From Paludibaculum fermentans (GTDB taxonomy: Bacteria > Acidobacteriota > Terriglobia > Bryobacterales > Bryobacteraceae), in assembly GCF_015277775.1 (NCBI RefSeq), contig NZ_CP063849.1, positions 9,067,501-9,131,500 of the forward strand: DNA of 64,000 nt, given 5' to 3'. Positions 21,365-37,892 of this stretch are shown here, one piece after another (positions within the stretch are counted from its first letter, which is position 1; each line of letters begins with the position of its first letter). Made by a program: the position numbers and the translations under genes. The notes beneath the pieces were generated by a model, which did no database searches, was not told the origin of the DNA, and worked only from the letters and a program-made list of their open reading frames with translations.

Positions 21365-22203
21365 CGGCCGGCCCAAAGGGTCCAGGCTTCCATGAAATCC
21401 TTACCCCGGAAGCGCGTCGTGCGGGGGCCGATGTGTTCGACGCCGGGCAGGAGTACGGCGTCGGGTGATGGCGTGGAGCGTGTGGTGGCTTCCTGGATGA
21501 TCTCGACGGGCCCCTCGATGCGGTACGGCGGGATCTGGCTGAGCTTGCGCAAGGCCTCGTAGGCGCCGGCTTCAATCCGCATGTTGGCGGTGGTTGCATT
21601 GTCCGAGATGCAGGCGTAGTAGCCGACGCCTTCTTTGACGGCGACGGTCACGGCCTGGGGCACAATCGCGTGGAGGTCTTCCGTGGCGGCCTGGTCTCCG
21701 GTGAGCAGGATGACGGGCGTGTTGTACCAGCCGGCGAGCGCGCTGCGGGTTTCGATTTCGCCCACCTCTTTGCCGTTCATGAGCAGCTTCTGGATCCCTT
21801 GCGAGCTATAGCTGTGGGCCATGACGGCACGCTCGCGATTGGCGCGCGCGTGCTGGCCGATGAAGGCGATGGCGGAGAATTTCCGTTCCAGCAGCATTCT
21901 TGGTCCAAGTGCGCCGATGACGAGCCGTCCGCCTTCAATTTGGAGAGCGGACAGGGTGCGGCTGCCGTCATGGCCATCCCAGACGACGACATCGGCTCCG
22001 CCGGCGCGATTGAAGCCGCGGATGGCGGCGTTGATCTCACCGGCCAGCAGCTTCTGGAGTTCGGGATTGGTGGGCTCAGTCTGCTCCTGGCGGCAGATGC
22101 CGGCGACGCCTTCGGCGTCCGTGATCAGCAGAATCGATTTGGATGCTTGCGCGGCGGCGCAGGCGCAGAGGGCGGTGGTCAGGACGAGTAGCTTGCGTAG
22201 CAT
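21361..22203 (-). CDS. M55 (DppA-type) D-aminopeptidase, exported
   Basis: A 280-residue zinc D-aminopeptidase of the DppA family that releases D-amino acids from short peptides, possibly during cell-wall peptide recycling. Metal ligands are recognisable in ITDAEGVAG (Asp29, Glu31), the VVWDGHDG motif, and the FIGQHARA histidine, followed by MAHSYSS and NGKEVGE. The start at 22203 gives a signal peptide (LLVLTTALCACAAAQA). The frame runs further upstream, but those residues are proline/arginine-rich and not family-like. The gene converges on the BamE-like gene with overlapping stops and lies 10 bp beyond the last cassette gene. Confidence 0.88.
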   Translation of the reverse strand: MLRKLLVLTTALCACAAAQASKSILLITDAEGVAGICRQEQTEPTNPELQKLLAGEINAAIRGFNRAGGADVVVWDGHDGSRTLSALQIEGGRLVIGALGPRMLLERKFSAIAFIGQHARANRERAVMAHSYSSQGIQKLLMNGKEVGEIETRSALAGWYNTPVILLTGDQAATEDLHAIVPQAVTVAVKEGVGYYACISDNATTANMRIEAGAYEALRKLSQIPPYRIEGPVEIIQEATTRSTPSPDAVLLPGVEHIGPRTTRFRGKDFMEAWTLWAGR

Positions 22204-22213
22204 GACTAGCCCA

Positions 22214-23956
22214 TTATGGGGCTGACGGGGGCGGGGTGTCTCCGTAGAGATAGGTCGTGATGGCCTTCTCCACCTCGGCCTTGGTAAAGCATCGGACGGG
22301 GATAGTCTGCCCACCGGTAGGCTGGACCTCGATGGGGTCCACTTTGGGAGCCAGAACCCGGAGCAGGGGTGCGTGGTCGCGGCTGCCGGCGAAGTCCGGT
22401 TCCAATGCTATGAAGCGGTAGCGGCCCGGAACGATCCGGCTGGCGTACTTGAGTGATTCCGGATCACCTTCGGCGACATTGTCATCCTGCTCAGTCAGCA
22501 GTGGTTGCTCGGGGATGGCCAGCACCATCCATTTCTTCTCAGGATCAGCCGGCTGGTTTGTCAGTTTGTAAGTCACGTTGGGTTTTGGTGCCAGGCGGAT
22601 TCGTAGGGCCGGCGCGGGGGCTCCCCTGATCTCAATGACTCCGCATTCCATACGTTTGTCATTGAAGATCACGCTTTCAACGTAGGTACGGTCGTACTTG
22701 AGTCGGCAGCGGACCCTCCATCGACCGGCCGGGACCGCGGGCAGCGTGAACCGGCCGGTCTCGGAATCGATGTCGGCAGACGTAGCGAAGAGCTCGGAGC
22801 CTGCGTCGGCAGAGTCCAGTGTGGTGGTTCCGGCTGGGTGGACGACGGTGTGGCGCACTGCGCCGGTAGGGGTGTTCTCAACTACATAGGAAACATTGCT
22901 GCCCGGCTGAATCAGGCGGCTGCCCAAACTGTCTTCCGCGATTCCGCTGACGGGGATTCCGGGCCGCAAGACGATCGGAAAGGGAGCCGGTGCGGCACTG
23001 CCCACAATCAAGGGGAAGTTTGCCGTGGCCGGCGGAGTGGCCCCCCGATCCCTGGTGGTGGCCACGAGGCGGTAGGTGCCGGGCGGCGCCATTTGGAATA
23101 AGAAGGAGCCGATTTCCTCGTCCGAGTTTCCGGATATGGATGCGAAACGGCGCTCTTCACCGGCGTCGGCTGGATAGATCTCCATCGATACCGGCTCTTG
23201 CCAACGAACCCCCGGCGCAGCGGAGAACGGGCCGGTGAGGGAGTTGACGGGGGTAGCCCGCAGGTGAAACTCGAGATGAGGGTCGAGTCCTGGCGCGGCC
23301 GCGAACGGCTGCGCCCCGGCGCGAGTAGGGCTGTCGGGATAGAAGACGGGCATCCACATGGAACGAGCCTCGAAACCGTTGCGCGGGACGGCATCGAGCA
23401 GGTGCTCGGTGGGCAGAATGGCGTTGCAGCGGGTGAAAGCGACATACCGATCGGGAGCCACGGAGTCAATCCGGAAAAAGCCACGATGGCCAGTGACGGC
23501 CATGTGCAGCCGGCTGGCGCTGCCTTCCTGCACCGCAACAGGGGAAATGAATACATGGCAGTCGCCAACGGGTTCACCCTCATCGTTCAGGACGCGGCCG
23601 GAGACGACCGTGGGCGCAGAGAACGTTAGCTTCAACCCCTCAGTCTCCTGGCCAGGCTTCATCTCCACTCGGATCCCAATCTGTGGGCCACCCAGCGGGC
23701 CAGGGTTCTGGTGGTGGGAGACAGTCAGAAAGTAGTGTCCGGGTTTCACGCCGGCAAAGCGGAATGCCCCATTGGCGTGGGTGGACGTGGATTGGCCTAG
23801 ATTCGTCTGTCTTCCGTCCTCGTCCACCAGGCGCAGGCGCGCATCGTTGATGGGCACTCCAGCCGAGTCGACGACGATTCCGGAGAGAGTCCCGGGAGTC
23901 TGCTGCGCCATCGCGCCAAGCACGGCGAGGAAGAGAACGGCGAAGCGGCTGGGCAT
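22214..23956 (-). CDS. Cassette 4, A protein: secreted carboxypeptidase-regulatory-domain protein
   Basis: A 580-residue secreted protein of repeated CarboxypepD_reg-like beta-sandwiches, second gene of the fourth BA cassette. The signal peptide ends near GAMAQQ. Domain 1 (LSGIVVDSAGVPINDARLRL) and domain 2 (VSGRVLNDEGEPVGDCHVFI) are followed by at least three more sandwich modules with the pattern GxFRFAGVKPGHY or GRFTLPAVPAGRW. Three cysteines conserved in all four A proteins are present: GDCHV, TRCNA and PVRCF. The C-terminus (EVEKAITTYLYGD) is a shared helical tail, here extended by PPPSAP. No enzyme domain or membrane anchor is visible. It starts one base after the B gene stop (TGA-A-ATG). 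Such domains often bind carbohydrate or act as scaffolds; the function is unknown. Confidence 0.85.
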   Translation of the reverse strand: MPSRFAVLFLAVLGAMAQQTPGTLSGIVVDSAGVPINDARLRLVDEDGRQTNLGQSTSTHANGAFRFAGVKPGHYFLTVSHHQNPGPLGGPQIGIRVEMKPGQETEGLKLTFSAPTVVSGRVLNDEGEPVGDCHVFISPVAVQEGSASRLHMAVTGHRGFFRIDSVAPDRYVAFTRCNAILPTEHLLDAVPRNGFEARSMWMPVFYPDSPTRAGAQPFAAAPGLDPHLEFHLRATPVNSLTGPFSAAPGVRWQEPVSMEIYPADAGEERRFASISGNSDEEIGSFLFQMAPPGTYRLVATTRDRGATPPATANFPLIVGSAAPAPFPIVLRPGIPVSGIAEDSLGSRLIQPGSNVSYVVENTPTGAVRHTVVHPAGTTTLDSADAGSELFATSADIDSETGRFTLPAVPAGRWRVRCRLKYDRTYVESVIFNDKRMECGVIEIRGAPAPALRIRLAPKPNVTYKLTNQPADPEKKWMVLAIPEQPLLTEQDDNVAEGDPESLKYASRIVPGRYRFIALEPDFAGSRDHAPLLRVLAPKVDPIEVQPTGGQTIPVRCFTKAEVEKAITTYLYGDTPPPSAP

Positions 23957-23957
23957 T

Positions 23958-25595
23958 TCAACGAGCCCCTTTCTTCGCTGCCGGACGATTCCCGGATATG
24001 GCCCTGAGGATAACTGCCGGCCCGGGACCTTCCTTCAGTTGGACAGGTGTGCCCGCAGCTCGATACTCCGCCAGGAAGTTGGCGTCGAGCCAGGCTCCGG
24101 GCTCGATGTCATCGAAGGCATAGATACGGTAGGCGCCCGGGTGAAGTCCCGTCAGGCGGAAGTTGCCTTGCTCGTCGACGCTGGTGGTGGCGTAACGGCT
24201 GGGAATCGAGGCAGCGGCATCATCCGGGGCCGCCAGGATGATGGTGGCGATTCCCTCCTGCACATGGCCGCTGACCTCGGCACCGTTCGCTCCGATGAGG
24301 ATGTCGAGGCGAGCCGGAGTGGCGGGTGAGATGAGGAAGGGCTGGTCGAGGACGTCGAGTTTGCCCAGCGTCACTGATTTCAAGTAGCCGCCAGGTGGAA
24401 GGGGACTGAGAGCAAGGGCCCAGCGCCCGGCCGGCACCCCAGGGATGACGAAGGAGCCATCGGGCTGGAGTGTGGAACGGTCCAGATTGACCGGTGCGGA
24501 TTCCAGTGAGCGGAGACTGACGGTGAGCTTGGCGGGAAGCGCTGGGGCTCCGGAGATGCGTACGCGGCCACGGAGGTCTATACAGGGCTGAAGAGGCAGT
24601 TCCACAGTTGGCGCCCCCGCTGCGGCGCTGACTTCTTCGCGAGCGGAGTAACAGCGGCCCTGGAGTTGGACAGTGCCACTCAATGTATAGCGTCCGGGGA
24701 CGAGACTCCGATACACGGGACGCTCATCCCCGGCCATGATGGACTGGCCGCCGACATAAAGGTCCTCAAGGATTCCAGTGGGGCGTGTTTGCAGGATCAG
24801 GGTTGCAAGGCTCGTGCCTGGAGCAGGTTTTGGGATTGCGACATCCTTCGGCCACAGGATACGGATGCCAAGCATGGCCTCGGCCGGCACCTGCGCGGCT
24901 ATATTGAAGCCCGCGAGTTCGTCGCCCGGCTTGATCTCGACGAGCACCGCCTCGTGGAAATTGAGAGTGGAAGGATAGTAGGAGGTATAGCGGCGATTGA
25001 GATCGACATTGGCGTTCGCTGGAAACAGTTCCAGCCGCGGCAACACCGTGTAACCCACCGACAGGCGATAACGCCCGGGGATCAAGCCATCAATCTGGTA
25101 GTCTCCTGACCGGTCGACGGTTCCGCCTCGCCCGAAGTAGTTACTGATTGTGCCTTCGACGGGCCGAGCCGTGACGGTTGGATTCATCGCAGCCGCCGAT
25201 AGCCCCGTGATCGTCCCGCTCACTTCCCCGAGCGCGGGCAGCCTGATGATCAACCCGGACTTGTTCTCATTTGCCCCGAGCGTAATGATTTGGCCAGGCG
25301 CGTCGGGCCGGCGTGCGCCGTAGTTCATCGGGGCGTAGCCGGGCCGGGTGACGCTGATGCGGTAACGGCCGGCGGGTAGCGCTCGCAGAAGGAACTGGCC
25401 GTCACCTTCCGTGCCGGCTTGGCCTCGGACATCGTCGCGGCCTTCCAGGGTGATTTCGACCGTGGCGCGGTGTAGCGGCGCGCCCGTGACGGAATTGACG
25501 ACGCGGCCCGCAATCGAGCTGCTGCGCTCCGGCTGGGCGAAGGCTCGGCCCATTCCTAGAATTAGGAGAACAACGGAAAGTTTATACCGGACCAT
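23958..25595 (-). CDS. Cassette 4, B protein: secreted carboxypeptidase-regulatory-domain protein
   Basis: A 545-residue secreted protein, first gene of cassette 4. The signal peptide has 20 residues before Gln21, giving a mature start QPERSSSIAGRVVN shared by the other B proteins. Several sandwich modules follow: residues ~25-95, ~120-185, ~290-345, ~345-420 and the C-terminal GNFRLTGLHPGAYRIYAFDD. Two cysteines (315, RCYSAR; 338, QPCIDL) match a pair in B2 and are absent from B1 and B3. The ATG has GGAG nine bases upstream. The conserved upstream element lies 30 bp before the start. No catalytic residues or known partner are visible. Confidence 0.85.
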   Translation of the reverse strand: MVRYKLSVVLLILGMGRAFAQPERSSSIAGRVVNSVTGAPLHRATVEITLEGRDDVRGQAGTEGDGQFLLRALPAGRYRISVTRPGYAPMNYGARRPDAPGQIITLGANENKSGLIIRLPALGEVSGTITGLSAAAMNPTVTARPVEGTISNYFGRGGTVDRSGDYQIDGLIPGRYRLSVGYTVLPRLELFPANANVDLNRRYTSYYPSTLNFHEAVLVEIKPGDELAGFNIAAQVPAEAMLGIRILWPKDVAIPKPAPGTSLATLILQTRPTGILEDLYVGGQSIMAGDERPVYRSLVPGRYTLSGTVQLQGRCYSAREEVSAAAGAPTVELPLQPCIDLRGRVRISGAPALPAKLTVSLRSLESAPVNLDRSTLQPDGSFVIPGVPAGRWALALSPLPPGGYLKSVTLGKLDVLDQPFLISPATPARLDILIGANGAEVSGHVQEGIATIILAAPDDAAASIPSRYATTSVDEQGNFRLTGLHPGAYRIYAFDDIEPGAWLDANFLAEYRAAGTPVQLKEGPGPAVILRAISGNRPAAKKGAR

Positions 25596-25625
25596 TTCGA
25601 GGCACTCCGGCTGTAATTCTCAATT

Positions 25626-25639
25626 ATTCACTATGACAC
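25626..25639 (-). promoter_or_regulatory. Conserved cassette element, copy 4
   Basis: Minus-strand GTGTCATAGTGAAT, starting 44 nt before the B4 ATG. TGTCATAGT resembles an extended -10 (TGN then CATAGT). The same element precedes all four cassettes. No conserved -35 is seen, so it could instead be a regulator site. Confidence 0.5.
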
Positions 25640-25673
25640 GTTTGGAGAAGTCTGCAAGGGGCGACATTCTTCT

Positions 25674-27428
25674 TTAACGCGGATCTCCGGCGATGTAGTG
25701 ATGGATGATCTTCTGGACCTCCTCCGCCGCGAAGCATCTCACATTGAGGGTCTGATCCCGGCCGCCCACAACTTCCACAGGCTTCACTTGCCTGCCGAGA
25801 AGCCGGAGCGCGCGTTCATTCAGACTCACACCGCCCTCCGGTTGTTCCACGCCGAACAGATGGTACCTTCCGGGCATTAAGCCGTCGCCACGGCCAGCAT
25901 CCGAGTGGATGAGCCTGCTCGGGCTGCCATCTCCGAATGGAACCGCGTGAAGTGCACAATTGGACTTGGCAGCCGCGGCGATGTCGACAAACTCGAACTG
26001 CAAATTGGGGAGCTTACTATTTGTACGTATTTTCAGGATTGCGGTCGAATCCGGGGTCACTTCGATCTCCTGGTTCCCAACCGGCGCTTCCCCATACTGC
26101 ATGGATTCCACCCAGGCGGGCCGCTGTAGTTGTTCATAGCGGACAAGCCAGCGGCCCGGCGCCACTCCGGGGATCTGAAAGCTTCCCTCCTGGGGGCTAA
26201 CCCGGCCGGTGAGGGTCGTGAAGGGGCCACCCGGCCGTGCGGGCGTCAACGTGAGGATGCCCACGGAAGCAGTTCGTGCAGATCCCATGGGCGGAACTCC
26301 TCCCGGCCGGATTCGCTGACCAGCGGAGGCGGGCGCTGCTGTGGCGGCTCCAGCATCAGGCCACTCCACCTTGCCGAGGACCGTCGTGCTCATTCGCAAC
26401 TGGAGTTGGACCAGTGGCGGCGCGGCCGGTCCGACCACCACCTTGCCGGCCTCGGAAACCAGCAAGCGCCCGAACTGATCCGTCGTCCAGGCTGTGAGGC
26501 TGTAGGCGCCGCGCGGGATCATCTCGAAACGGAAAGTTCCCGTTTCCACGTTGAGGTAGTCGGTCCACTCCAGTGAATCCTCAGTGTCTGGCCCCTCAGG
26601 GATCAGGCGGATCTCCGGTGCCGTCGACCAGGACAGGCCCGGAGCTGGTGTCACCGTGCCGCGGATGGTGTGGACGGGGACGGACCTCAGCTGGAACTCA
26701 AGGCTCACCTCGGCTCCGGAGGCGACACTGATCTCGACGGCGTCCGAGCGGGTTGTGCCGTTCTGGTAGAACGTGCGCTGCCACGTTTCTTGCGGCTCGA
26801 ACCCGTTCGGGCCGACGATGTCCAGGATGTGCTCAGCCGGGAGATCCTGCTCGCAGGTCACCACGAGGGAGTAGCGGTCCGGTGCGACGGATTCCAGGCG
26901 GAAACGGCCTTTGTCGTCAGTTGATCCCCTGCCGGCTTCCGGAGGAACCGCGCCGCCCAGCGGCACCGGCAGCAGGGCGACGCCGCATTGGGAAAGAGGC
27001 TCTCCGCCGTCGTTTAGGACGACTCCGGTGATGGTTCCCGCGGGCTTCAGGCTCACCGCGATGGCAGTGGTCTCCTTGCCGGCGCGGACTTCAATGCGGG
27101 TGCCCTCCTGCGCCAGGTTGAGCGCGCCCGGGTACTCGCTGTGCGCGGCACTCACAATGTAGATTCCCGGGGGCAGTCCACCCGCTGAGAATCCTCCTGC
27201 CGAGTCGCTGGTGGCCAGCTTCGTGCTGTCAGTCTTGGCAGTGCGGCCGATTGTCACCCGGGCACCGGCAATGGGCTCACCTGTCGCCGCGTCGACCACA
27301 CGCCCGCTCACGGAGCCTCGCTCCGAGGGCGGTTGGCTCTGTGGCCGGCCCTGATTGGCGGGATACGCGCTGGTCTGGCCCCGGACCGCTATCGCACACA
27401 GGCAGAGGGCAAGCAGCCATCGTTGCAC
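25674..27428 (-). CDS. Cassette 3, A protein: secreted carboxypeptidase-regulatory-domain protein
   Basis: A 584-residue secreted protein of the A family. The true start is GTG at 27428, one base after the B3 stop (TGA-C-GTG); the frame is open further upstream, but those residues are read over the end of B3 and are not homologous to other A proteins. A signal peptide (RWLLALCLCAIAVRGQ) is followed by domain 1 (GSVSGRVVDAATGEPIAGA) and domain 2 (ITGVVLNDGGEPLSQCGVAL). The family cysteines SQCGV, VVTCEQ and NVRCF are present, and the tail EEVQKIIHHYIAGDPR closes the protein. A proline/alanine/glycine-rich insert lies around residues 350-400. Confidence 0.85.
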   Translation of the reverse strand: MQRWLLALCLCAIAVRGQTSAYPANQGRPQSQPPSERGSVSGRVVDAATGEPIAGARVTIGRTAKTDSTKLATSDSAGGFSAGGLPPGIYIVSAAHSEYPGALNLAQEGTRIEVRAGKETTAIAVSLKPAGTITGVVLNDGGEPLSQCGVALLPVPLGGAVPPEAGRGSTDDKGRFRLESVAPDRYSLVVTCEQDLPAEHILDIVGPNGFEPQETWQRTFYQNGTTRSDAVEISVASGAEVSLEFQLRSVPVHTIRGTVTPAPGLSWSTAPEIRLIPEGPDTEDSLEWTDYLNVETGTFRFEMIPRGAYSLTAWTTDQFGRLLVSEAGKVVVGPAAPPLVQLQLRMSTTVLGKVEWPDAGAATAAPASAGQRIRPGGVPPMGSARTASVGILTLTPARPGGPFTTLTGRVSPQEGSFQIPGVAPGRWLVRYEQLQRPAWVESMQYGEAPVGNQEIEVTPDSTAILKIRTNSKLPNLQFEFVDIAAAAKSNCALHAVPFGDGSPSRLIHSDAGRGDGLMPGRYHLFGVEQPEGGVSLNERALRLLGRQVKPVEVVGGRDQTLNVRCFAAEEVQKIIHHYIAGDPR

Positions 27429-27429
27429 G

Positions 27430-29091
27430 TCACTGCACCCTTCTCGTGGCGGTGGAGCCCACGATGGTTTTGACCGCGATCTCCGGGGCGCGGCCTTCGC
27501 GCAATTCCACGGGCGTGCCCAGTCCTGCGTAGTGCGGCAGGAACTCCGGATCGAGCCACGCCTGCGGGGCCAGTTCTTCGAACGCGTAGATTGTGTATGC
27601 GCCCGGGGGCAAAGCTCGGAACTCGAAGCTGGCGTCCTCATCCAGGCCTGCCGTGAAGAAGAAACGCGGGCGGCCGGCTCGCTCGCCCTGTGGGGCGGCC
27701 AGGACCACTGTCGCCCGGCGGTCGTCCACACGGCCCCGGAGTTGAGCGCTCACCGTGCTCACTACAATCTCCAACGGGTCGCGATTGTCATTGGAGACGA
27801 GGAGACCTCCGTTCAGGACATCGGTTCGGCCTAGCAGGGCCGATTTGACGTGGCCGCCCGGGGGGATGGCGTCCACCGCCAGATCCCACACACCGGCAGC
27901 AACCGCTGGGATCGAGAACGAACCATCTGGTTGCACCTTGGCTGATTCCATGCGCAGGATGCCAATCTCGGATCCGCTCAAGCGGACGCTCATCCTCGAC
28001 AGGGCTCCACCGTTCGGGCCTTCCAGGCGGATGCGGCCCTTAACGGACGGGGCGGGTCGAAAGTAGAGGGGGACGTCGAGGGTGCCGCCTGTGAGGTTCA
28101 CCTCCTGGCGGGCCGAATAGAGTACGCCCGTGGCCTCAGTCGCGCTCGTAATCACATATCTGCCCGGCGCCAGGGCGAGCGTCTCAAAGCGGCGCTCGGG
28201 GCCCGTCGCGATCTGCAGATGGTATCCCGATTCTCCGTTGACCTCCCGGATCCGTGCGGGGATGAATGGGCGGGCTGTGAGCGCCCCATTGGCCCGCTGG
28301 ACAAGCGGGCTGTTCCCTCCGGGCAGTCCGAAGAACGGGAGGCTCAGGCGGATCGGTTCCATCTCCTGGATTGACACATTGATGCCCATCGCCTCGCTGG
28401 CCGTACCCAGCAGGATCGGAGCGGCCTCGCCTCGAGCCGGAGTGGCGGGATGGAAGGTGAGTGCCGGGACCTGGCGCGGAGCCGGCTCCAGCGAAACCAC
28501 CGGCCCGGGCTTTTCATCCGCGATCTCCTCGCGCTGTCGAGCCGAGACAATATAGTAGCCGGCAGGCAGATGGATGATCCGGTATTGGCCCGCATTGTTG
28601 GCTCGCGCGCTGCCTTCGGGGCTCCAATCCAACTGGCCGCGTCGATAGATTCGCCGGTATGCCTGGACGAATGCGCCCTTGGCCGGGCCTCCGCCGGCCG
28701 CAACGATGCTTCCACTGATTGCGCCCAACTGCGGGAGCCGGACGATGAGCCCGGACTTGTTCTCGTTGGGCCCCACTGTCACAATCTGGCCTGGATTGGA
28801 AGGGAACCTGGCTCCATAGTTCATGACGGCGTAGCCGGGTTTGGAGACCTCGATCCGGTAGCGGCCCGCCGGCAGCAGCCGCAGCAGGAATTGGCCATCG
28901 GCATCGGTGGGCGCCATGCCGCGCACATCGTCCCGGCCGTCCAGGACTATGGTCACCGCGGCCCGGCGCAGGGGTGCCCCGGTGACCGCATTCACCACGC
29001 GCCCCGCAATGGAGCTATTCCGTTCCGGCTGCGCGGCGGCCGTGCGGGCGGCGAGGATCAGTAGAATAGCGGCGGTTTGATATCTGACCAT
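27430..29091 (-). CDS. Cassette 3, B protein: secreted carboxypeptidase-regulatory-domain protein
   Basis: A 553-residue B-family protein with a 20-residue signal peptide before the mature QPERNSSIAGRVVN. Conserved blocks are LRRAAVTIVLDGRDDVRG, the MNYGAR motif, the N-E-N-K-S-G-L-I motif near residue 110, PAGYYIVSARQ, IQEMEPIRLS and the C-terminal GAYTIYAFEELAPQAWLDPEF. It lacks the cysteine pair of B2/B4 (Leu and Ala at those positions). GAGG precedes the ATG by eight bases. Compared with B4 it keeps the long 'R-R-x-x-R-G-x-L-x-W' insert after residue 145 seen in B1 and B2. Confidence 0.85.
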   Translation of the reverse strand: MVRYQTAAILLILAARTAAAQPERNSSIAGRVVNAVTGAPLRRAAVTIVLDGRDDVRGMAPTDADGQFLLRLLPAGRYRIEVSKPGYAVMNYGARFPSNPGQIVTVGPNENKSGLIVRLPQLGAISGSIVAAGGGPAKGAFVQAYRRIYRRGQLDWSPEGSARANNAGQYRIIHLPAGYYIVSARQREEIADEKPGPVVSLEPAPRQVPALTFHPATPARGEAAPILLGTASEAMGINVSIQEMEPIRLSLPFFGLPGGNSPLVQRANGALTARPFIPARIREVNGESGYHLQIATGPERRFETLALAPGRYVITSATEATGVLYSARQEVNLTGGTLDVPLYFRPAPSVKGRIRLEGPNGGALSRMSVRLSGSEIGILRMESAKVQPDGSFSIPAVAAGVWDLAVDAIPPGGHVKSALLGRTDVLNGGLLVSNDNRDPLEIVVSTVSAQLRGRVDDRRATVVLAAPQGERAGRPRFFFTAGLDEDASFEFRALPPGAYTIYAFEELAPQAWLDPEFLPHYAGLGTPVELREGRAPEIAVKTIVGSTATRRVQ

Positions 29092-29120
29092 ATCTTGCGC
29101 CTCGGCTGCGAATTGAGAAC

Positions 29121-29133
29121 ATTACTATGACAT
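29121..29133 (-). promoter_or_regulatory. Conserved cassette element, copy 3
   Basis: Minus-strand ATGTCATAGTAAT, starting 42 nt before the B3 ATG. The leader shares a TCTCAATTC/AATTGAG-like segment with copies 2 and 4. It is the most divergent of the four elements at its first base. Confidence 0.5.
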
Positions 29134-29194
29134 GGATTGGGGTGAAATTGGTTTCGTCATAATTGGCAGGAGCTGCGGGTAAGGCGCTGAAGGA

Positions 29195-30946
29195 TTACCG
29201 CGCTTCTCCGGCCACAAAGTTCGCCACGATCTTGAGCAACTCGTCCGTCGGGAAGCATCGGATCTGGACCGTCTGCTCCTGGCCGGCGGAGAGTTCAACT
29301 GGCTTGACCTCACGGCGCAGCAGTTCGTTCACCCGTTCATTGATCATGCCGCCGCCTGCCCCCTGTTCCACCGCGAAGAACGAGTAGCGGCCCGGCCCGA
29401 GGGGCCTCGCCTGCACCGGTTGCCCCGGAACCACGACGCCGATGATGCTCGTACCCCTGGGGCCCCCGCCGTCCGCCGGCACTGCCTGAATCATCCAGTA
29501 AGTCTTGGCCTGGGGCGGCGCACCCTTCAGCTCATAGTGGACCTCTGGTGCCTTGGTGCCTGTTCTGAGCAGCAGGGTGCCCGTCGAGCCCTGCACAATT
29601 TCAATGACGTCGCCCTCCACCAGTGTGTCGCCGTATTGCATGGACTCGATCCAGGCGGGCCGCTGATACGACTGGTATTGCACGCGCCAACGCCCCGGCG
29701 TGATGCCTTCCAGTTGAAAAGTGCCATCCGCGGCACTCACCTGGGTGCTGTGTGATTCCAGGTTCTGACTGGGGCCGGCCTCGCTGAGCATGATGGATCC
29801 CCTGACCGGTTGTTGGCCGGAAGGCCCACCCATCGGCCCCACTCTCATGCGGACCGCCGCTTGCCCATTGCCTGCTGCCTCGGATGGCGGCTCCTCCACC
29901 TTGCCGGTGAGCGCGATGGAAGTCTGCAGTTGGAGCGTGACCGGCGGGGGCGCTGTCTGCCCGACTGTGATGCGCTGGCTGGCGTACCAGGCGGGCTGGG
30001 ATCCACCCCGGAACGGGACCGCCTTGAAGCGATACGCGCCGGGGGGCACCATCGGGATGCGGAACCGGCCGGACTTTCCGGCCGCCGCCGAACCGAAGTT
30101 GGATCCGCGATCCGCGGCACTCTCTTCCGGATAGAGCATGACATGGTAGCCGTCGGCCGGCGGGGATCCATCGGGGGCGATCACGACTCCGGTAACCGTT
30201 GTGACGAGCTGAGGTTTCGCGCGCAGCTCGACTTCCACATTGGCGCCGGGTACGACATTGACCGTCGACGCGCCGGCCGCCGTGGGACTATCCGGGTAAT
30301 AGATTGGCTGCCAACCGGCGCCGGGCTCCAGCCCTCCTGGTCCGACAACGTCCAGCAGGCGCTCGACGGGCAGGGCTTGGGAACACCGGACAGCGAGCAG
30401 GTAGCGATCCGGTGCGACCGGCGCGATGCGGAACTCGCCATCTTCGTTCGATTGCGCGTAGTTGTTCTGACGGATGGGCACTGTCCCGATCGGCGCCGCC
30501 GACAGGAAGACTCCGCAGTCCGGCAGCGGTTCGCCGTCATCGCTCAGAATGCGGCCTGAGACTGTGCCTGCCGGCGTCAGCTTCACCACAACGCCGGTGG
30601 TCGCTTTGCCGGATTCCACGTCCACTAGTAACCCGGCTTGGGGCAGGCCCAGCGCGCCGGGGTACGACTGATGGTTGGCCTGCACGTAGTATTGGCCCGG
30701 CTTCAGATTCGCGGCCGAAAACTGTCCGGCTGGATCCGCGCTGGCGGAGACCATTCCGCCGGGGCCCAATGCCTGCACTGTTACCGTTGCCCCTGCGACA
30801 GGTTCTCCCTTTGCAGCGTCCACCACGCTTCCGCTGATCGAGCCCGACGGCTGCTGCTGCTGCTGGTCCTGACGCCCGCTGCCAATTCCCTGAATCTGCG
30901 CGGGGCAGGGGAGACAAAAGCAAAGGAGAAAGAACAGGCAGCGCAT
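29195..30946 (-). CDS. Cassette 2, A protein: secreted carboxypeptidase-regulatory-domain protein
   Basis: A 583-residue A-family protein with a signal peptide (RCLFFLLCFCLPCPAQ) that is unusually cysteine-rich. Domain 1 reads GSISGSVVDAAKGEPVAGA and domain 2 VSGRILSDDGEPLPDCGVFL. The three family cysteines are PDCGV, AVRCS and QIRCF. The DPAGQFSAANLKPGQYYVQA and GRWRVQYQSYQRPAWIESMQYGD blocks match A1 and A3 closely. The tail is DELLKIVANFVAGEAR. It begins one base after B2 (TAA-C-ATG). The closest relatives by eye are A1 and A3. Confidence 0.85.
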   Translation of the reverse strand: MRCLFFLLCFCLPCPAQIQGIGSGRQDQQQQQPSGSISGSVVDAAKGEPVAGATVTVQALGPGGMVSASADPAGQFSAANLKPGQYYVQANHQSYPGALGLPQAGLLVDVESGKATTGVVVKLTPAGTVSGRILSDDGEPLPDCGVFLSAAPIGTVPIRQNNYAQSNEDGEFRIAPVAPDRYLLAVRCSQALPVERLLDVVGPGGLEPGAGWQPIYYPDSPTAAGASTVNVVPGANVEVELRAKPQLVTTVTGVVIAPDGSPPADGYHVMLYPEESAADRGSNFGSAAAGKSGRFRIPMVPPGAYRFKAVPFRGGSQPAWYASQRITVGQTAPPPVTLQLQTSIALTGKVEEPPSEAAGNGQAAVRMRVGPMGGPSGQQPVRGSIMLSEAGPSQNLESHSTQVSAADGTFQLEGITPGRWRVQYQSYQRPAWIESMQYGDTLVEGDVIEIVQGSTGTLLLRTGTKAPEVHYELKGAPPQAKTYWMIQAVPADGGGPRGTSIIGVVVPGQPVQARPLGPGRYSFFAVEQGAGGGMINERVNELLRREVKPVELSAGQEQTVQIRCFPTDELLKIVANFVAGEAR

Positions 30947-30947
30947 G

Positions 30948-32612
30948 TTATTGGCTCCGCCTTTCCGCTGGAGCGCCGGGGATTGCGGTCACCTTGATAT
31001 CCGAGGCTCGGCCTTCTCCAAGCTCAACGGGAGTGCCGAGACCGGGGTAACTCTTCAGGAACTCCGGATCGCGCCAGGCCCCCGGTGCCATTGATTCGAA
31101 AGCGTAGATCCGGTAGGCGCCCGGAGCGAGATTTCGGAATTCAAAGTCTCCGTTCTCATCCGCACCGGTTGCGAGGTAAAAGGATTGGACGCTTGCCAGT
31201 TCGCCCTGCGGGGCCGCCAGGATCGTGCTGGCGAAGCCGTTCTCGACATGACCACGGAGTTGCGCCGCGCGGGTGCTGATGACAATCTCCAGCGAATCTT
31301 TGGTGTCCGCCGCAATGACCATGTCCTTGGCCAGCACATCCAGCTTGCCCAGCATCATGGACTTCAAATACCCGCCCAGGGGAATGGGCCCCGGCAAGAT
31401 ATCCCAAATCCCGGGTGGGACGTCTTTGAGGATGAAGGAGCCGTCCGCTTGGACCTCGGCGCTCCTCCTGTCAATGGGTAGGTTTTCCCCGGAATTCAGG
31501 ACAACCTGCATACCGGAGAGCCGGCCGGCGCCGGGCCCTGTGATGCGCAGATGACCGGAAAGATTGACGCACGGGGAGTAGGAGAGCAAAGTGTCGACAG
31601 AACCGCCGGACAGCGCAATCTCCTTCCGCGCCCCGTAACACTTCCCCTCGACCTCCATCGAACTCGCCAGGATGTAACGGCCGGGATTGACCGGCTGGTA
31701 CTCCACCTGCCCGTCCATCGTGGCGGTGAACGCGTGCATCGGCGCGCCCGGACCTCCATCCGTGCCTCGGATCCAGACCGGCGCTCGCAGCATCCCGAGG
31801 CGAGGGGCGGCCCCAGGTTGGCTGAACTGCGGGGTCACGCCCGGCGGCAGTTGAATCCACAAACTGACCCGCACCGGCGCCATCTCCTGGATGGGGATGT
31901 CGATATCGCGGCGCGCCTCGCCGGAGCCGATGTCGAGCGGCACTGCCTCCTGTTGGATCACCGTGGAGGGATAGTAAGTCAGGGCCGGCACCGCCTTCTG
32001 CTCGGTCTCCTGCGGGGAGCGGGGCGTGCCCATGCGAATCACCGGCATGTTCACCTGGTACGCGGCCACGATATAGCGGCCGGGCCGGAGGTTGCCGATG
32101 TGATACTGGCCCCGATCATCGATGGTGGCGCCCCCGGCCTGGATCCAGCCCAGCCTGCCGCGCGGGAACTCCCTGCGGAACACGCTGACGTAGGATCCGC
32201 GGGCGATCATGCCGGACGTGCCGAGGATGGTGCCGCTGATCGAGCCCAGGCGTGACAGCCGGACCATGAGACCCGACTTGTTCTCGTTCGGGCCGAGCGT
32301 GATGACTTGGCCGGGAGCACCGGGATAGCGGGCTCCGTAGCCCATATCCGAATAACCGGGCTTGGAGACATTGATCAGGTAGCGGCCCGCGGGCAACGCT
32401 CTCAGCAGGAAACTGCCGTCGGCGCTAGTGGGCGCCATGCCGCGAACATCGGACCGCCCCTCGAGAATGATCTCCACGGAGGCTCGGTTCACCGGCGCGC
32501 CAGTGGTGGCATTCACCACTTGGCCCGCAATCGAACTGCTTCGCTCCGGCTGCGCGGCGGCCGTGCCGGTCGCCAGGATTAATGCAATGAAGAGGCGTTT
32601 ATTCCGGAGCAT
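30948..32612 (-). CDS. Cassette 2, B protein: secreted carboxypeptidase-regulatory-domain protein
   Basis: A 554-residue B-family protein: a 20-residue signal peptide, mature QPERSSSIAGQVVN, then the conserved VEIILEGRSDVRGMAPTSADG block and the sandwich modules in the family order. Cys325 (GKCYGARKE) and Cys348 (YSPCVNL) are 23 residues apart, exactly as in B4, and probably form a disulfide in the periplasm. The C-terminus carries HVENGFASTILAAPQGELA and DFEFRNLAPGAYRIYAFESM. The start lacks a clear Shine-Dalgarno, unlike B3 and B4. Confidence 0.85.
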   Translation of the reverse strand: MLRNKRLFIALILATGTAAAQPERSSSIAGQVVNATTGAPVNRASVEIILEGRSDVRGMAPTSADGSFLLRALPAGRYLINVSKPGYSDMGYGARYPGAPGQVITLGPNENKSGLMVRLSRLGSISGTILGTSGMIARGSYVSVFRREFPRGRLGWIQAGGATIDDRGQYHIGNLRPGRYIVAAYQVNMPVIRMGTPRSPQETEQKAVPALTYYPSTVIQQEAVPLDIGSGEARRDIDIPIQEMAPVRVSLWIQLPPGVTPQFSQPGAAPRLGMLRAPVWIRGTDGGPGAPMHAFTATMDGQVEYQPVNPGRYILASSMEVEGKCYGARKEIALSGGSVDTLLSYSPCVNLSGHLRITGPGAGRLSGMQVVLNSGENLPIDRRSAEVQADGSFILKDVPPGIWDILPGPIPLGGYLKSMMLGKLDVLAKDMVIAADTKDSLEIVISTRAAQLRGHVENGFASTILAAPQGELASVQSFYLATGADENGDFEFRNLAPGAYRIYAFESMAPGAWRDPEFLKSYPGLGTPVELGEGRASDIKVTAIPGAPAERRSQ

Positions 32613-32642
32613 TCTGTTGCGTTGCGGCTCAATTACTCACGC

Positions 32643-32656
32643 ATTTACTATGACAC
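32643..32656 (-). promoter_or_regulatory. Conserved cassette element, copy 2
   Basis: Minus-strand GTGTCATAGTAAAT, starting 44 nt before the B2 ATG, in the 80-bp gap between A1 and B2. It is identical to the copy before cassette 1 over all 14 bases. Confidence 0.5.
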
Positions 32657-32692
32657 CGTTCGGTGGCAAGCGAAAGCGGGGCGCTGGCTGTC

Positions 32693-34456
32693 CTACCGTT
32701 CTTCCCCCGCGATGTAGTTCGCCGCCATCTTCTGAACATCGGCGACGGAAAAGCACTTCACTGCAATGGCCTGGTCGTTGCTTGCGGTAATCTCCACAGG
32801 CTCCACTTGCCGGCTCAACAGTTCCAGCAGGCGGTCATTTACCATGCCCCCGCCATTGGATTGCTCCAGCGCGAAGAAATGATAGCGGCCGGGCGCCAGC
32901 GAATTCGCCGTGATCGAGTGGCCTGGCGTGCTGTTGCCCACATAAGCCTGGTTCCCGGAGCCCTCCCGCGCCACCGGCAACGCCTGGATCATCCAGTATT
33001 TCTTGGCATCACCCGGCGGATCCTTCAGCTCATACTTGACCGTCGGAGGACTCCCGCCCAGCACGATGCTCAGCGTTCCAGGGGCGCCTTCTACTACCTC
33101 AATCTGTTGGTTCTCCGCCGGCGTGTCCCCATAATGTATGGTCTCCATCCAGCCCGGCCCCTGGTACGACTGATAGCGCACGCGCCAACGGCCCGGGGTC
33201 ACACCCTGGATCTGGAAGGCGCCGTCCTGTGCATTCACCTGGCCGGCCTTCTGCCCGAGCGGCAGGTTGGGCCCCGCCGGCATCAACATCACTGATCCCT
33301 TCGCTGGCGTGAATGGCGTGGCCTTCGGGCCTCTCAGGCCGGAAAAAACGTTGAGGGTCAGCGGAGCGGAGGCAGGCGCCGAACTCGCATGTGGATCCTC
33401 TACCTTGCCGCTGATTGTCATCGACGGCCGGAACTGCACGGTCATCGGAGGGGGAGGGGCGGAGCCGACGCTGACCGCCGCCTCGGCCACATTCGCCTGC
33501 TCCGGCGCACCATCCTGGGTCATCCCGAACAGCCTGTAGTTGCCCGGCTGCACCATGGTGAAACGGAAACTGTTGCTGGGTTGGACCATGGCGACGGCGG
33601 CCGGCTGCTGCGAGCCAACGATACTGTCCGCGATGGCGAGCTGCAGCATCGGCTGGTTCTTCCAACTGGCGCCCGGTGCGGCTGTGATGACCCCGGTGAG
33701 TGAGGTGACGGCAACCGGTTTCATATGGAACTCCACCTTCACGTCGGCCCCCGCGGTGACTCCGAATGACGCTCCGCCTCCGGCCGCTGGATTGTCGGGA
33801 AAGTAGCCGGTTTGCCACGATTCGCGCGGATCAAACCCCTCCGGACCTACCATGCTCAGCAGGTTCTCCACCGGCAGGTCTTCCGGGCAATTTGCCTGCA
33901 GGATATAGCGGTCCGGCCCAACGGGAGCCATGCGGAACGCCCCCTTGTCATTCGACTGCGCAAACCCCGCGGGCTGCCCCGGCGAACGGCCCAGCGGTGC
34001 ATGCATCAGCATGAGATTGCAGTTGGACAGCGGTTCCCCACCATCGTCAAGTACACGGCCGGACACTGCTCCAGGCGGTGAGAGGGTTACCGTGACGCCC
34101 TTGGTCTCCTTCGCAGGCAGAACCTCCGCGAACACTCCGGTCTGCGGCAAGCCCAGCGGGCCCGGATAGTTCTGATGCGCCGCCTGCAGGTAGTATTGGC
34201 CCGGAGGCAGCTCATCGACCGAAAACTGCCCCGAGGCATCGGTGCTCACGGTGCGCGTACCGGCCCCGCCGCCCGAGCCAAAAATCAGCACCTGGACCTC
34301 CCGCGCCGGTTCGTTGGTGGCGGAATCGACCACCCGGCCGCTGAGGGAGCCGGCCGGCTGCGCAGCAGCCTGTGTCCCCGTGGTATTGAAGAACTGATTC
34401 TGCTGGGCGCCGGCTGCCAGCGCGAAGGTCGCGATACACAACAGCAGCCGCCTCAT
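32693..34456 (-). CDS. Cassette 1, A protein: secreted carboxypeptidase-regulatory-domain protein
   Basis: A 587-residue A-family protein. The start at 34456 (TGA-G-ATG after B1) gives a signal peptide RRLLLCIATFALAAGAQ; an ATG seven codons upstream would overlap B1. Modules: SLSGRVVDSATNEPAREV, VSGRVLDDGGEPLSNCNLML, SLTGVITAAPGASW, TISGKVEDPHASS, then GRWRVRYQSYQGPGWMETI. The family cysteines SNCNL, QANCPE and AVKCF are present, and the tail is DVQKMAANYIAGEER. There is no anchor or catalytic motif. Together with B1 it forms the promoter-distal half of the first cassette. Confidence 0.85.
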   Translation of the reverse strand: MRRLLLCIATFALAAGAQQNQFFNTTGTQAAAQPAGSLSGRVVDSATNEPAREVQVLIFGSGGGAGTRTVSTDASGQFSVDELPPGQYYLQAAHQNYPGPLGLPQTGVFAEVLPAKETKGVTVTLSPPGAVSGRVLDDGGEPLSNCNLMLMHAPLGRSPGQPAGFAQSNDKGAFRMAPVGPDRYILQANCPEDLPVENLLSMVGPEGFDPRESWQTGYFPDNPAAGGGASFGVTAGADVKVEFHMKPVAVTSLTGVITAAPGASWKNQPMLQLAIADSIVGSQQPAAVAMVQPSNSFRFTMVQPGNYRLFGMTQDGAPEQANVAEAAVSVGSAPPPPMTVQFRPSMTISGKVEDPHASSAPASAPLTLNVFSGLRGPKATPFTPAKGSVMLMPAGPNLPLGQKAGQVNAQDGAFQIQGVTPGRWRVRYQSYQGPGWMETIHYGDTPAENQQIEVVEGAPGTLSIVLGGSPPTVKYELKDPPGDAKKYWMIQALPVAREGSGNQAYVGNSTPGHSITANSLAPGRYHFFALEQSNGGGMVNDRLLELLSRQVEPVEITASNDQAIAVKCFSVADVQKMAANYIAGEER

Positions 34457-34457
34457 C

Positions 34458-36143
34458 TCAAGGCCCCTTCCTTGCACCGCCTGACCCCGGGATCGCCTTC
34501 ACCTTCAGGTCCGGAGCACGGCCTTCCTGCAACTCCACTGAAGTCCCGCTATCGGGGTAGTTCTTCAGGAACTCCGGATCCAGCCAGGCCTGCGGTGCCA
34601 TCTCTTCAAACGCATAAATCTTATACGAACCCGGCGTCAGCGCCCGGAAATCGAAATCGCCATTTTCGTCGACTCCAGACGCCGCGTAGAAGCTGAGGAC
34701 GTGTGCGAGTTCGCCCTGCGGCGCGGCCAGTATCGTGGTGGCGAAGCCTTCCTCGACATGGCCATGCAGGTCGGCGCCACGCGTACTCACTACGATATCC
34801 AACGGGTCCCGCGTCTCCGCCGTAATGAACATGTCCTTCGTGAGCACGTCCATCTTGCCCAGCATCATCGATTTCAGGTAGCCGCCCTTGGGGATCGGCT
34901 CCACGACAATGTCCCACAAGCCCGGTGGCACGCCTTTCAGCACATACGAGCCGTCCGGCTCCACTTTGGCGTTCTCGACCCCCATCGGCGCGTTTTCGCC
35001 CGAAACCAGGCCGACCGTCATGTTGGACAGCGGACCCGCGTTGGGGCCGACCAGGTGGACATGCCCTGACAGATAGATGCTCGGCGTCAGTGTCAGTGTC
35101 ACCTCCACGGCTCCGCCCGAGATGGTAATCTCCTGCCGCGCCGAATACTTCTTGCCCTCCGCTTCGGTCATGCTCGACACGATATACCGGCCCGGCAGCA
35201 GCGCCTGGGCCTGGTAACGCTGTTCGCTGCTGGCGCTCAAAGCCTGCGCCTGGTTGCCCGTGGAGCCACCCACGCGTTGTAGCCAGACCGGCAGGTACAT
35301 CCGCGGGCCCGGCCCGCCGCCATTCATCTCTGAATGGCTCGCTTCCACCTCCGGCGGCGCCTGCACCCGGACGCTCAAACGCACGGGCGCCATCTCCTGG
35401 AGCGCGATATCCACATCCGTCATCTCCGCCCCCGGCTTGAGGTCGACCGCACCGGCTTCCTCTTCAATCACCGACGAAGGATGGTAGGTCAACGCGGGCA
35501 TCGCCCGCGGCTCCGGCTCACCCGGTTCGCCCGGCCGCATCACCTGCGGGGGTAGGAACTGGTTCTGGCGCGCTGCCACGACATACTGCCCGGGTGGCAG
35601 GTGAAAAATCCGGTATTCACCCCGGTCGTCTGCATTCGCCCCTCCGGCGTACACCCATTCCGGCTTACCGCGCGGAAAGGAACGGCGAAACGCCTGCACA
35701 TAGCTGCCAGTCGCCGGACCGCCGCCCACACCCGTCACTGAGCCGGTGATCGCCGACAGTTGCGGCATGCGGATGATCAGGCCCGACTTGTTCTCGTTGG
35801 CCCCGATGCTGATAACTTGTCCAGGACCACCCGGTTTGCGCGCGCCGTAGTCCACCGGGCCGTATCCATTTTTGGAAGCCCCGATAAAGTACCGTCCCGG
35901 CGGCAAGGCCCGCAGCAGAAACTGCCCCTCCCCATCGGTAGGCGCCGTGCCTCGGACATTCTCACGGCCCTCCATGACGATGCTCACCAGGGCCCGGCGC
36001 ACGGGCGCTCCAGTCGTTTCGTTTAGCACACGCCCGGCGATCGAGCTGTTGCGCTCCACCTGCCCGGCCGAGCCCACGGCTCCGAGGATTACCAACATCA
36101 AAATGGAACAAACTCTATATATTTGGGCGCTCTCCACCGGCAT
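34458..36143 (-). CDS. Cassette 1, B protein: secreted carboxypeptidase-regulatory-domain protein
   Basis: A 561-residue B-family protein as drawn from the first ATG. The start is doubtful. Aligning the upstream element and signal peptide with B2 and B4 places the ancestral start 21 bp downstream, where the codon is ATA (36122-36120), 44 nt after the element and nine bases after GGAG, as in B4. From there the protein is 554 residues, equal to B2, with 20 residues before Gln. The drawn ATG would leave a leader of only a few bases if the element is a -10. The body has all B blocks (IVMEGRENVRGTAPTDGEG, the GPNENKSG-like motif as GANENKSG, IALQEMAPVRLS, IYAFEEMAPQAWLDPEF) but lacks the B2/B4 cysteine pair (Lys and Ser). 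Confidence 0.8.
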   Translation of the reverse strand: MPVESAQIYRVCSILMLVILGAVGSAGQVERNSSIAGRVLNETTGAPVRRALVSIVMEGRENVRGTAPTDGEGQFLLRALPPGRYFIGASKNGYGPVDYGARKPGGPGQVISIGANENKSGLIIRMPQLSAITGSVTGVGGGPATGSYVQAFRRSFPRGKPEWVYAGGANADDRGEYRIFHLPPGQYVVAARQNQFLPPQVMRPGEPGEPEPRAMPALTYHPSSVIEEEAGAVDLKPGAEMTDVDIALQEMAPVRLSVRVQAPPEVEASHSEMNGGGPGPRMYLPVWLQRVGGSTGNQAQALSASSEQRYQAQALLPGRYIVSSMTEAEGKKYSARQEITISGGAVEVTLTLTPSIYLSGHVHLVGPNAGPLSNMTVGLVSGENAPMGVENAKVEPDGSYVLKGVPPGLWDIVVEPIPKGGYLKSMMLGKMDVLTKDMFITAETRDPLDIVVSTRGADLHGHVEEGFATTILAAPQGELAHVLSFYAASGVDENGDFDFRALTPGSYKIYAFEEMAPQAWLDPEFLKNYPDSGTSVELQEGRAPDLKVKAIPGSGGARKGP

Positions 36144-36152
36144 TTTCTAAAC

Positions 36153-36166
36153 ATTTACTATGACAC
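36153..36166 (-). promoter_or_regulatory. Conserved cassette element, copy 1
   Basis: Minus-strand GTGTCATAGTAAAT, only 10 bp before the drawn B1 ATG but 44 nt before the aligned ATA. It lies in the 129-bp gap shared with the divergent GH51 gene. Confidence 0.5.
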
Positions 36167-36272: not shown

Positions 36273-37892
36273 ATGACGTATGGGATGCAGCGACGCACTT
36301 TACTTCGGACAGCGGCCGGCGCGTTGGCGGGCTTTGCCGCCGCAGTGCGCCCGGCCCTGGCGGCCGACGCCGACATCGAGATCACTCCCCGGGCCGACGG
36401 TGACACCATCAGCCCGCACATCTACGGCCACTTCATCGAGCATCTCGGCACCGTCATCTACGACGGAATCTGGGTGGGCCGCAATTCGAAGATCCCCAAC
36501 GTCGACGGCATCCGGCTGAAGTTTGTCGAGGACATGAAACGCCTCGCCGTCCCGAACCTTCGCTGGCCCGGCGGCTGCTTCGCCGACGGCTACCACTGGC
36601 GCGACGGCATCGGCTCGGCCTCTGCCCGGCCGCGCACCTACAACTACTGGCAGGCCAGCCTGCCGCCCGGCTTCGACCACACCGAGACCAACGAATTCGG
36701 GATCCACGAGTTCATGCGTCTCTGTCGCCTCACCGGAGCCGAGCCCTACCTCGCCGCCAATGTCGGCTCCGGCTCCCCCAAGGAATTCCACGACTGGGTG
36801 CTCTACTGCAACGCGCCCGTCGGCACCGTCTCCCTTGCGGCCGAACGCGCCGCCAACGGCGACAAAGCCCCCTTCGGCGTGAAATGGTGGGGCGTCGGCA
36901 ACGAATCCTGGGGCTGCGGTGGCGCGATGAATCCCGGTGAATACGCCACGCTCTACCGCCGCTTCATCACGCAATTCCCCGTCTACGAGCCCAAGCCTTA
37001 CCTCGTCGCCGTCGGCCCGCGCGGCCATTCCAAGGACATGGACATCGGCTGGACCACAGGCTTCTTCGAGAACATGCTGCCGCAGCACCGCGCCAAGGTC
37101 GATGGCTACTCCCTCCACTTCTACACCGACTTCCGGAACACCAGGGAAAAGGTCGGCCAGTTCGACGCCGCCGGCTGGTACGACGTCATCCGCGAGGGCC
37201 TGCGCACGGAAGAGGTGATCGATAAGCACTGGACCGCCATGGGTGCCTACGACAAGGCCCACCACACGAAGCTGATCGTCGACGAGTGGGGTGTCTGGTA
37301 TCCGCCAGGAGAAGAGACGGCGCCGAACCACCTGCTCAGCCAGCCACTCACCTTGCGCGATGCCCTCCACACCGCGGTCTCCTTCGATGTCTTCAACCGC
37401 CATGCCGGCAAGATCGCCATGGCCAACGTCGCTCAAACCATCAACTGCCTGCACTCCCTGTTCCTGGCGCAGGGCGACCGTTACGCACGCACGCCCGTCT
37501 ATCACGTCTTCGACATGTATCGCGGCCACATGGGTGGCCGGTTGGCCCAGCTCAACATCCGGACCCCCGAGCGCAAAGTCCCCTCGCGCAATGGAGCAGT
37601 CACCCTGGCCGGACTATCCGGCTCAGCCTCCACGAAGGACGGCCGGATGTCCATCACCCTCACCAATCCGTCCCTCGACGACGCGGTCGCCTGCCGCATC
37701 CGCCTCAGCGCAGGGACGGCCTCAGAAGCCCGAGCCACCGTTCTCACCCATGCCGACAAAGCGGCCCGCAACACCTTCGACCGCCCGGACGAGGTGAAGC
37801 CCGCGGCCCTGCCCATCACCGTGCGCGGTGGCAGCGTGGAAGTCACCCTGCCGAAACAGTCCGTCGTCTCCATCGAACTCCGCCTGGGCTGA
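36273..37892 (+). CDS. GH51 alpha-L-arabinofuranosidase, Tat-exported
   Basis: A 539-residue exported exo-arabinofuranosidase that removes terminal L-arabinofuranose from plant hemicellulose. A Tat-like signal (MQRRTLLRTAAGALAGF) leads to the (beta/alpha)8 barrel: HIYGHFIEHLGTVIYDGIWVG, NLRWPGGCFADGYHWRDGIG, the acid/base Glu211 in WGVGNESWGCGG, and the nucleophile Glu338 in LIVDEWGVWY. A C-terminal beta-domain closes the protein. The second Met (36285) could be the start. It is followed after 84 bp by a phosphodiesterase gene in the same direction. Confidence 0.93.
   Translation: MTYGMQRRTLLRTAAGALAGFAAAVRPALAADADIEITPRADGDTISPHIYGHFIEHLGTVIYDGIWVGRNSKIPNVDGIRLKFVEDMKRLAVPNLRWPGGCFADGYHWRDGIGSASARPRTYNYWQASLPPGFDHTETNEFGIHEFMRLCRLTGAEPYLAANVGSGSPKEFHDWVLYCNAPVGTVSLAAERAANGDKAPFGVKWWGVGNESWGCGGAMNPGEYATLYRRFITQFPVYEPKPYLVAVGPRGHSKDMDIGWTTGFFENMLPQHRAKVDGYSLHFYTDFRNTREKVGQFDAAGWYDVIREGLRTEEVIDKHWTAMGAYDKAHHTKLIVDEWGVWYPPGEETAPNHLLSQPLTLRDALHTAVSFDVFNRHAGKIAMANVAQTINCLHSLFLAQGDRYARTPVYHVFDMYRGHMGGRLAQLNIRTPERKVPSRNGAVTLAGLSGSASTKDGRMSITLTNPSLDDAVACRIRLSAGTASEARATVLTHADKAARNTFDRPDEVKPAALPITVRGGSVEVTLPKQSVVSIELRLG

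Follow-up and report, generated by a model that had tools for sequence, protein, structure and literature searches.

A tandem array of two-gene cassettes for putatively exported CarboxypepD_reg-type protein pairs in Paludibaculum fermentans

Acidobacteriota are abundant in soils and have many exported proteins that carry the CarboxypepD_reg domain (PF13620) and have no known function; Paludibaculum fermentans, a member of this phylum, lives in soil and wetland. Among the described systems closest to such proteins, SusE and SusF of the Bacteroidota are lipoproteins encoded beside SusC/SusD, likewise by two adjoining genes for exported proteins of multiple β-sandwiches. NOMO, a part of the BOS complex in the endoplasmic reticulum, is one long membrane-anchored protein, and the sensor domain of classical BlaR1 has a penicillin-binding fold. 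Candidatus Solibacter usitatus has an expanded group of divergent paralogues described as 'CnaB-type protein', apparently of the same domain type, for which its authors suggested binding; the accessible text of that report makes no mention of pairing (PMC3174227). Here we analysed a 64,000-nucleotide stretch (the window, bases 9067501-9131500 of contig NZ_CP063849.1) of the genome of P. fermentans P105T, which comprises a 9,476,802-bp chromosome and a 55,292-bp plasmid (PMC8407742). The window contains four tandem copies of a cassette of two genes, A and B, whose products have domains that match the CarboxypepD_reg/Cna_B/transthyretin (TTR)-like proteins above cut-off. We propose, at slightly better than even confidence, that A and B are co-translated and join in a heteromeric complex for recognition outside the cytoplasm, and that duplication has turned the pair into a small repertoire.

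The four A-B cassettes comprise eight open reading frames (ORFs), all on the minus strand; transcription runs from A to B within each cassette, B-A-B-A being the plus-strand order. Cassette 1 consists of A1 (34458..36143; 561 residues, ATG at 36143), which by eye appears to be exported and in the model has five CarboxypepD_reg/TTR-like domains, and B1 (32693..34456; 587 residues), whose ATG lies one base past the A1 stop. It is followed by A2 (30948..32612; 554 residues) and B2 (29195..30946; 583 residues), by A3 (27430..29091; 553 residues) and B3 (25674..27428; 584 residues), which has a GTG start one base past the A3 stop, and by A4 (23958..25595; 545 residues) and B4 (22214..23956; 580 residues). 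With these starts the A products span 545-561 residues and the B products 580-587. The A-B junction is a stop codon, one base and a start codon in all four cassettes. An element of the form TGTCATAGTRA is present upstream of every A gene, beginning 22-43 bases before its start. On the minus strand it reads TGTCATAGTAA in cassettes 1 (36155..36165), 2 (32645..32655) and 3 (29122..29132), and TGTCATAGTGA in cassette 4 (25628..25638). Across the 9.53-Mb genome the 12-base form, GTGTCATAGTRA, has three occurrences, which precede A1, A2 and A4, and the reversed control pattern gave no match; A3 has CATGTCATAGTAA in its place. The cassette 1 element is perhaps an extended -10 promoter. These observations agree with an initial annotation, made from the sequence without database searches, which had described four copies of a two-gene cassette on one strand, nearly constant in size and each with its own upstream element and one-base junction. 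Relative to cassette 1, the window copies share 42-56% identity in A and 32-44% in B.

Same-locus arrays with the same flanking genes were found in three genomes of the genus, with four cassettes in the window genome (G000), four in G214 and six in G217 (G and L codes denote the genomes and loci examined, u numbers the cassettes within an array; gene calls and starts in other genomes came from a home-made caller). None of the 14 A and 14 B genes of these arrays has an internal stop. TGTCATA precedes three of the four A genes of G214 and four of the six of G217, in which the u4 start was called too far downstream, and none of seven A genes from single pairs.

The initial annotation proposed that A and B are an obligate pair, an idea that homologues occurring mostly as unlinked singletons would undermine. 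Genome searches scored the best few candidates per genome, five in the B search and six in the A search of 237 family genomes; the A clade was delimited at E<=1e-132, a cut chosen after viewing the list (446 bits inside, 440 bits outside) and then checked by tree. This clade comprises 24 genes in 13 of the 237 genomes: four in the window genome, six in G217, four in G214 and one each in G015, G046, G014, G040, G098, G187, G183, G219, G220 and G235. A B-type gene lies directly downstream of 23 of them, as read from the locus (for G235, by tree), and in the 24th (G040) the contig ends inside A. Outside the three array-bearing genomes, nine carry a single A-B pair. The four next-best A matches (G232, G227, G231 and G230) belong to a different clade, made up of single genes, and their short contigs gave no sign of a second unit. 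Viewed from the other partner, 20 of the 22 B matches listed at E<=1e-110 have A directly upstream; of the other two, one (G099) lies behind an A piece at a contig end and one (G046) lies on a contig other than that of its presumed start. In G046, B begins one base past A and runs off the contig, and the presumed remainder is on another. A weaker B in G090 (E 6.8e-92) follows A fragments in different frames, and the B of G235 reaches only E 1.7e-72 and was typed by tree alone. The stop-N-start junction recurs in 13 of the 14 array cassettes and in G046; eight single pairs have an ATGA or GTGA overlap instead.

The A and B genes also share much of their history. Trees were built for 24 pairs, including the divergent G194 and L203 and the split G046, and without G235, G099, G040 and G090. 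The two trees have 17 of 21 splits in common, and 1000 label shuffles gave at most 3. Pairwise distances are correlated (Mantel r 0.92 for all pairs, permutation p 1e-4), both among the 14 array cassettes (0.93) and among the other ten (0.95). Thus the topologies, which the initial annotation proposed to compare, match closely though imperfectly. Each of the three species has orthologues of cassettes 1 and 2; cassette 3 is matched in G217 (u4), and cassette 4 has orthologues in both G214 and G217, with two copies in the latter. Adjacency and joint evolution in relatives indicate that A and B probably act as a matched pair.

Comparison of the window paralogues showed evenly saturated synonymous sites, with a proportion of differing synonymous sites (pS) of 0.62-0.70. 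Amino acid identity among the A paralogues is 70% in domain 1 and 27-55% in the others (34% in domain 2, 27% in domain 3). Because synonymous sites are as saturated in domain 1 as elsewhere, its conservation points to selection rather than gene conversion. Between orthologues, the ratio of nonsynonymous to synonymous differences (pN/pS) is 0.19-0.38 by domain, indicating purifying selection. Saturated synonymous sites, divergent domains and low orthologue pN/pS together characterize the copies as old, distinct and maintained. Intactness of every copy, orthology that mostly extends across species and purifying selection make a reservoir for antigenic variation unlikely.

All eight products score above the gathering threshold for CarboxypepD_reg (79.6-118.3 bits vs 32.3). 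The other families above cut-off, fn3_3, SpaA, SdrD_B, EMC7, CarbopepD_reg_2, DUF1416 and DUF4198, are of the same β-sandwich kind. The Pfam-type family scan gave no catalytic family above cut-off, no carbohydrate-binding module and no M56 domain in any of the eight. With signal peptides assigned by eye, the earlier description of eight secreted CarboxypepD_reg-type products without a recognizable enzyme domain stands. A pattern scan of the first 35 residues gave no lipobox, a difference from SusE/SusF, and no C-terminal sortase signal was found, the only LPxTG-like string being internal to B1. AlphaFold models of A1 (30 sequences; mean predicted local distance difference test score (pLDDT) 85.7) and B2 (24 sequences; mean pLDDT 82.7) are nearly all-β chains, with a terminal helix in B. 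Divided by strand order, A and B are each predicted to form a chain of five TTR/Cna_B-like sandwich domains. They would thus differ from described CarboxypepD_reg proteins in being exported five-domain units without a catalytic or anchoring part, with two different units adjoining.

Against solved structures, Foldseek matched individual domains to a thioester adhesin and to Cna_B adhesins and pilins. Among the matches listed, the TM-score over the query was at most 0.24, so that only single domains match and none is a full-length fold relative; A and B also lack the C-terminal sortase signal of Gram-positive pilins and Cna_B adhesins. The best sequence-profile relative with a solved structure is NOMO2 (9c7v_B; E 5e-25 from the A-based and 4e-31 from the B-based profile, scores that lack a valid control). 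HMMER breaks the match into seven pieces whose order is mixed, and the score adds up many weak domain hits. With units of ~550 residues the likeness is at the domain level; NOMO was not taken to be the same system. Matches to an anammox S-layer model were weak and far below its cut-off. A cysteine pair in domain 2 is shared by 23 of 24 B sequences. A further cysteine near the C terminus (C568 of B1) is present in all 14 array B proteins, and that column holds F, I, V or L in the 10 other B proteins; we considered whether it could mark an intermolecular disulfide.

A and B are both members of a single superfamily, whose CarboxypepD_reg units have ~550 residues. The A and B profiles each match all 61 family genomes searched at E<=0.001; at E<=1e-20 the A profile matches 54 of them, and the seven weaker genomes may hold only distant domain relatives. 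At the same cut-off the B profile matches 35 of 199 phylum genomes, including the window genome and one more of its family. A survey of 101 gene clusters gave 72 single genes, 24 pairs, two triples, two quadruples and one octet, that of the window. These counts are biased, because the 100 survey loci were fetched from the top of the A-search list and 20 of them picked as tandem-looking or from the window genome; some singles lie at contig ends, and the split G046 pair counts as two. The abundance of such units goes against the premise of the initial annotation that domains of this type do not usually form stand-alone proteins or arrays. Pairing is typical of some subfamilies, among them the A-B clade, and not of all. 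In a tree of 137 members, built by a quick method and weak at many branches, 19 of 30 tandem pairs (counted by hand) are mirrored, that is, first genes are nearest to first genes and second to second. Four types were distinguished: A-B itself (six pairs); a type in G008, G011, G036, G041, G028 and the window genome; one in G020, G036 and G049; and one in G001, G030 and G053, with two tandem cassettes in G001. The other 11 pairs look like local duplicates or have an indecisive placement. No description of paired units or arrays of this kind was found in the titles and abstract openings among the literature matches listed, which did not cover subscription papers or preprints. As a separate observation, CarboxypepD_reg gave 150 scored matches among 298 candidates in the whole G000 genome, mostly in frames whose length (~1000-1300 residues) would fit Oar-like TonB receptors.

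Some members of the superfamily are fused to a receptor. In G037, G068, G155 and G075 (L084:6226-11057, L188:5661-11478, L254:2720-6962 and L258:2803-8634) a BlaI-type gene comes first, then a gene for an M56 peptidase fused to one whole unit, and then a second-unit gene, which in G155 is cut by the contig end; a DUF3738 gene comes next in G068 and G075. The BlaI genes of G155 and G075 were identified solely through their similarity to the G037 gene. In the tree the fused unit of G037 is grouped with that of G068, and the partner of the one with the partner of the other; the fused units of G155 and G075 form a separate group, with partners placed indecisively, and the backbone between the groups is weak. 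Classical BlaR1 senses the outside through its C-terminal part; by analogy, the fused unit would take the sensor role here, with its partner as a secreted unit. A further natural fusion in G037 (L083:2709-6026) is a 1105-residue protein of two units that adjoins a single unit gene; by eye it has no internal signal peptide. As the accessible text of one report has it, a BlaR-type receptor can answer a peptidoglycan fragment (PMC3305447).

The array is preceded and followed by genes for hydrolases. An M55 D-aminopeptidase gene with a signal-peptide-like N terminus (21361..22203, minus strand) starts 10 bases past the B4 stop, a gap that is identical in G214 and G217; it is possibly co-transcribed with cassette 4. 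The divergent neighbour on the other side (36273..37892, plus strand) matches an alpha-L-arabinofuranosidase C-terminal domain, and a GH95 gene (18075-20552) and a GHL6 gene (14404-16377) also flank the array. Identity in G214 and G217 is 94-95% for the arabinofuranosidase, 84-91% for the M55 protein and 85-92% for GH95. The three glycosidase-type genes hint at a polysaccharide locus, the arabinofuranosidase and GH95 being kept in both relatives. No SusC/SusD-like gene was present among the six flanking genes of the array, the only ones family-scanned. A conserved neighbourhood was rejected as a guide to function, as no family held the same position at more than 3 of the 101 loci. As leads to a ligand the neighbours disagree, the flanking glycosidases suggesting a plant-type glycan and the M55 protein a cell-wall peptide.

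A heteromeric binding complex outside the cytoplasm is, in our view, the simplest reading of the data: the genes are adjacent, coupled stop to start and inherited together, several subfamilies form pairs, and some units are fused to receptors. Each cassette would give two co-translated exported five-domain proteins, dedicated partners of one binding complex, most likely a heteromer. The cassette would have been duplicated as a block in the ancestor of the genus, and every copy kept by selection, probably for its own target, with A domain 1 held constant and A domains 2-3 and all of B diverging. Several results weigh against this proposal. Matching trees cannot by themselves prove a complex, as block duplication and vertical descent also produce them without contact, and four splits per tree are unshared, some of them well supported: A groups G217u6 with G000u4 and G214u4 (100/99), B groups G217u5 with G217u6 (85/82), and B groups G214u3 with G217u3 (98/97). 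The u5/u6 conflict may reflect some exchange between these G217 cassettes. The array is present in only three of nine genomes of the genus and is thus dispensable; the remaining six have no A gene at E<=1e-132, the best match being 1.2e-109 in G047. The L203 pair lacks the B-type cysteine pair and has a 10-base gap, which makes its typing doubtful. Most superfamily clusters are single genes, and no neighbour family outside the genus indicates a ligand. A rather unlikely alternative is that A and B are ordinary tandem paralogues which share an operon and act separately, their adjacency and matching trees resulting from block duplication and vertical descent only. Their common superfamily, the frequency of singles and the 11 unmirrored tandem pairs, several resembling local duplicates, are consistent with it. 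Yet across the 13 genomes with A genes no lone A-clade or strong B-clade copy was seen away from contig ends, even though single units of other clades do occur in the same bacterial family. Retention of stop-start coupling between genera, the four mirrored subfamilies and the second unit kept next door by both groups of M56 fusions further argue against it.

Other readings concern what the pairs do. That they are sensors or co-receptors, binding a signal such as a cell-wall peptide and reporting to a BlaR1/M56-BlaI regulator encoded elsewhere, is suggested by the four BlaI-M56-unit loci, two of them with DUF3738, and by the secreted-looking M55 enzyme at its fixed distance behind the array in three species. 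We think this unlikely: the M56-fused units fall outside the A and B clades, three of seven long M56 frames checked (G199, G072 and G200; all seven taken from the top of the M56 search) carry no unit, and phmmer searches with the L084/L188 proteins found no M56, BlaI or DUF3738 relative on 19 loci with A-B pairs or parts. The A-B cassettes thus have neither of the two regulator genes that accompany the fused units. Improbable to a similar degree is a role as SusE/SusF-like surface glycan-binding proteins of a polysaccharide-use locus. The arabinofuranosidase and GH95 flank the array in all three species, and the host grows on complex polysaccharides (PMC8407742), but no neighbour family recurs around the 101 loci (single-pair neighbours being judged by eye and by that clustering), and A and B have neither a matched carbohydrate-binding module nor a lipobox. 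A structural surface polymer of β-sandwich subunits, pilus- or S-layer-like, would account for the Cna_B adhesins and pilins as best fold matches and for the weak S-layer hits; with matches confined to single domains, no sortase signal and no assembly gene recognized among the flanking genes scanned, it is very unlikely.

Beyond the recognition complex proposed for A and B, we tentatively raise the more doubtful possibility of an undescribed Acidobacteriota class of paired five-domain TTR-fold units, inherited and probably assembled together in matched sets without partner swapping, some of them connected directly to a BlaR1/BlaI-type regulator, one partner serving as its ectodomain and the other being secreted. 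A part of the exported proteins of this phylum can now be treated as testable units, namely the five-domain module, the partner-pair subfamilies, the copy-variable array and the receptor fusions, and the fusions to a known kind of signalling receptor suggest a role for the module. Should the pairs prove to be recognition complexes, one genus with arrays of four, four and six cassettes would offer a natural experiment on how cross-reaction between paralogues is avoided.

Two further features of the window were noted. A HipA-type protein with both HipA domains is encoded at 16395-17987; a relative occupies the matching place in G214 and G217, and that of G217 is preceded by a small gene that by eye resembles a helix-turn-helix protein. 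At 48510-52265 lies a gene for a protein kinase of 1252 residues with AAA_16 and TPR-like parts, and an ORF of similar size is found at 54239-57976.

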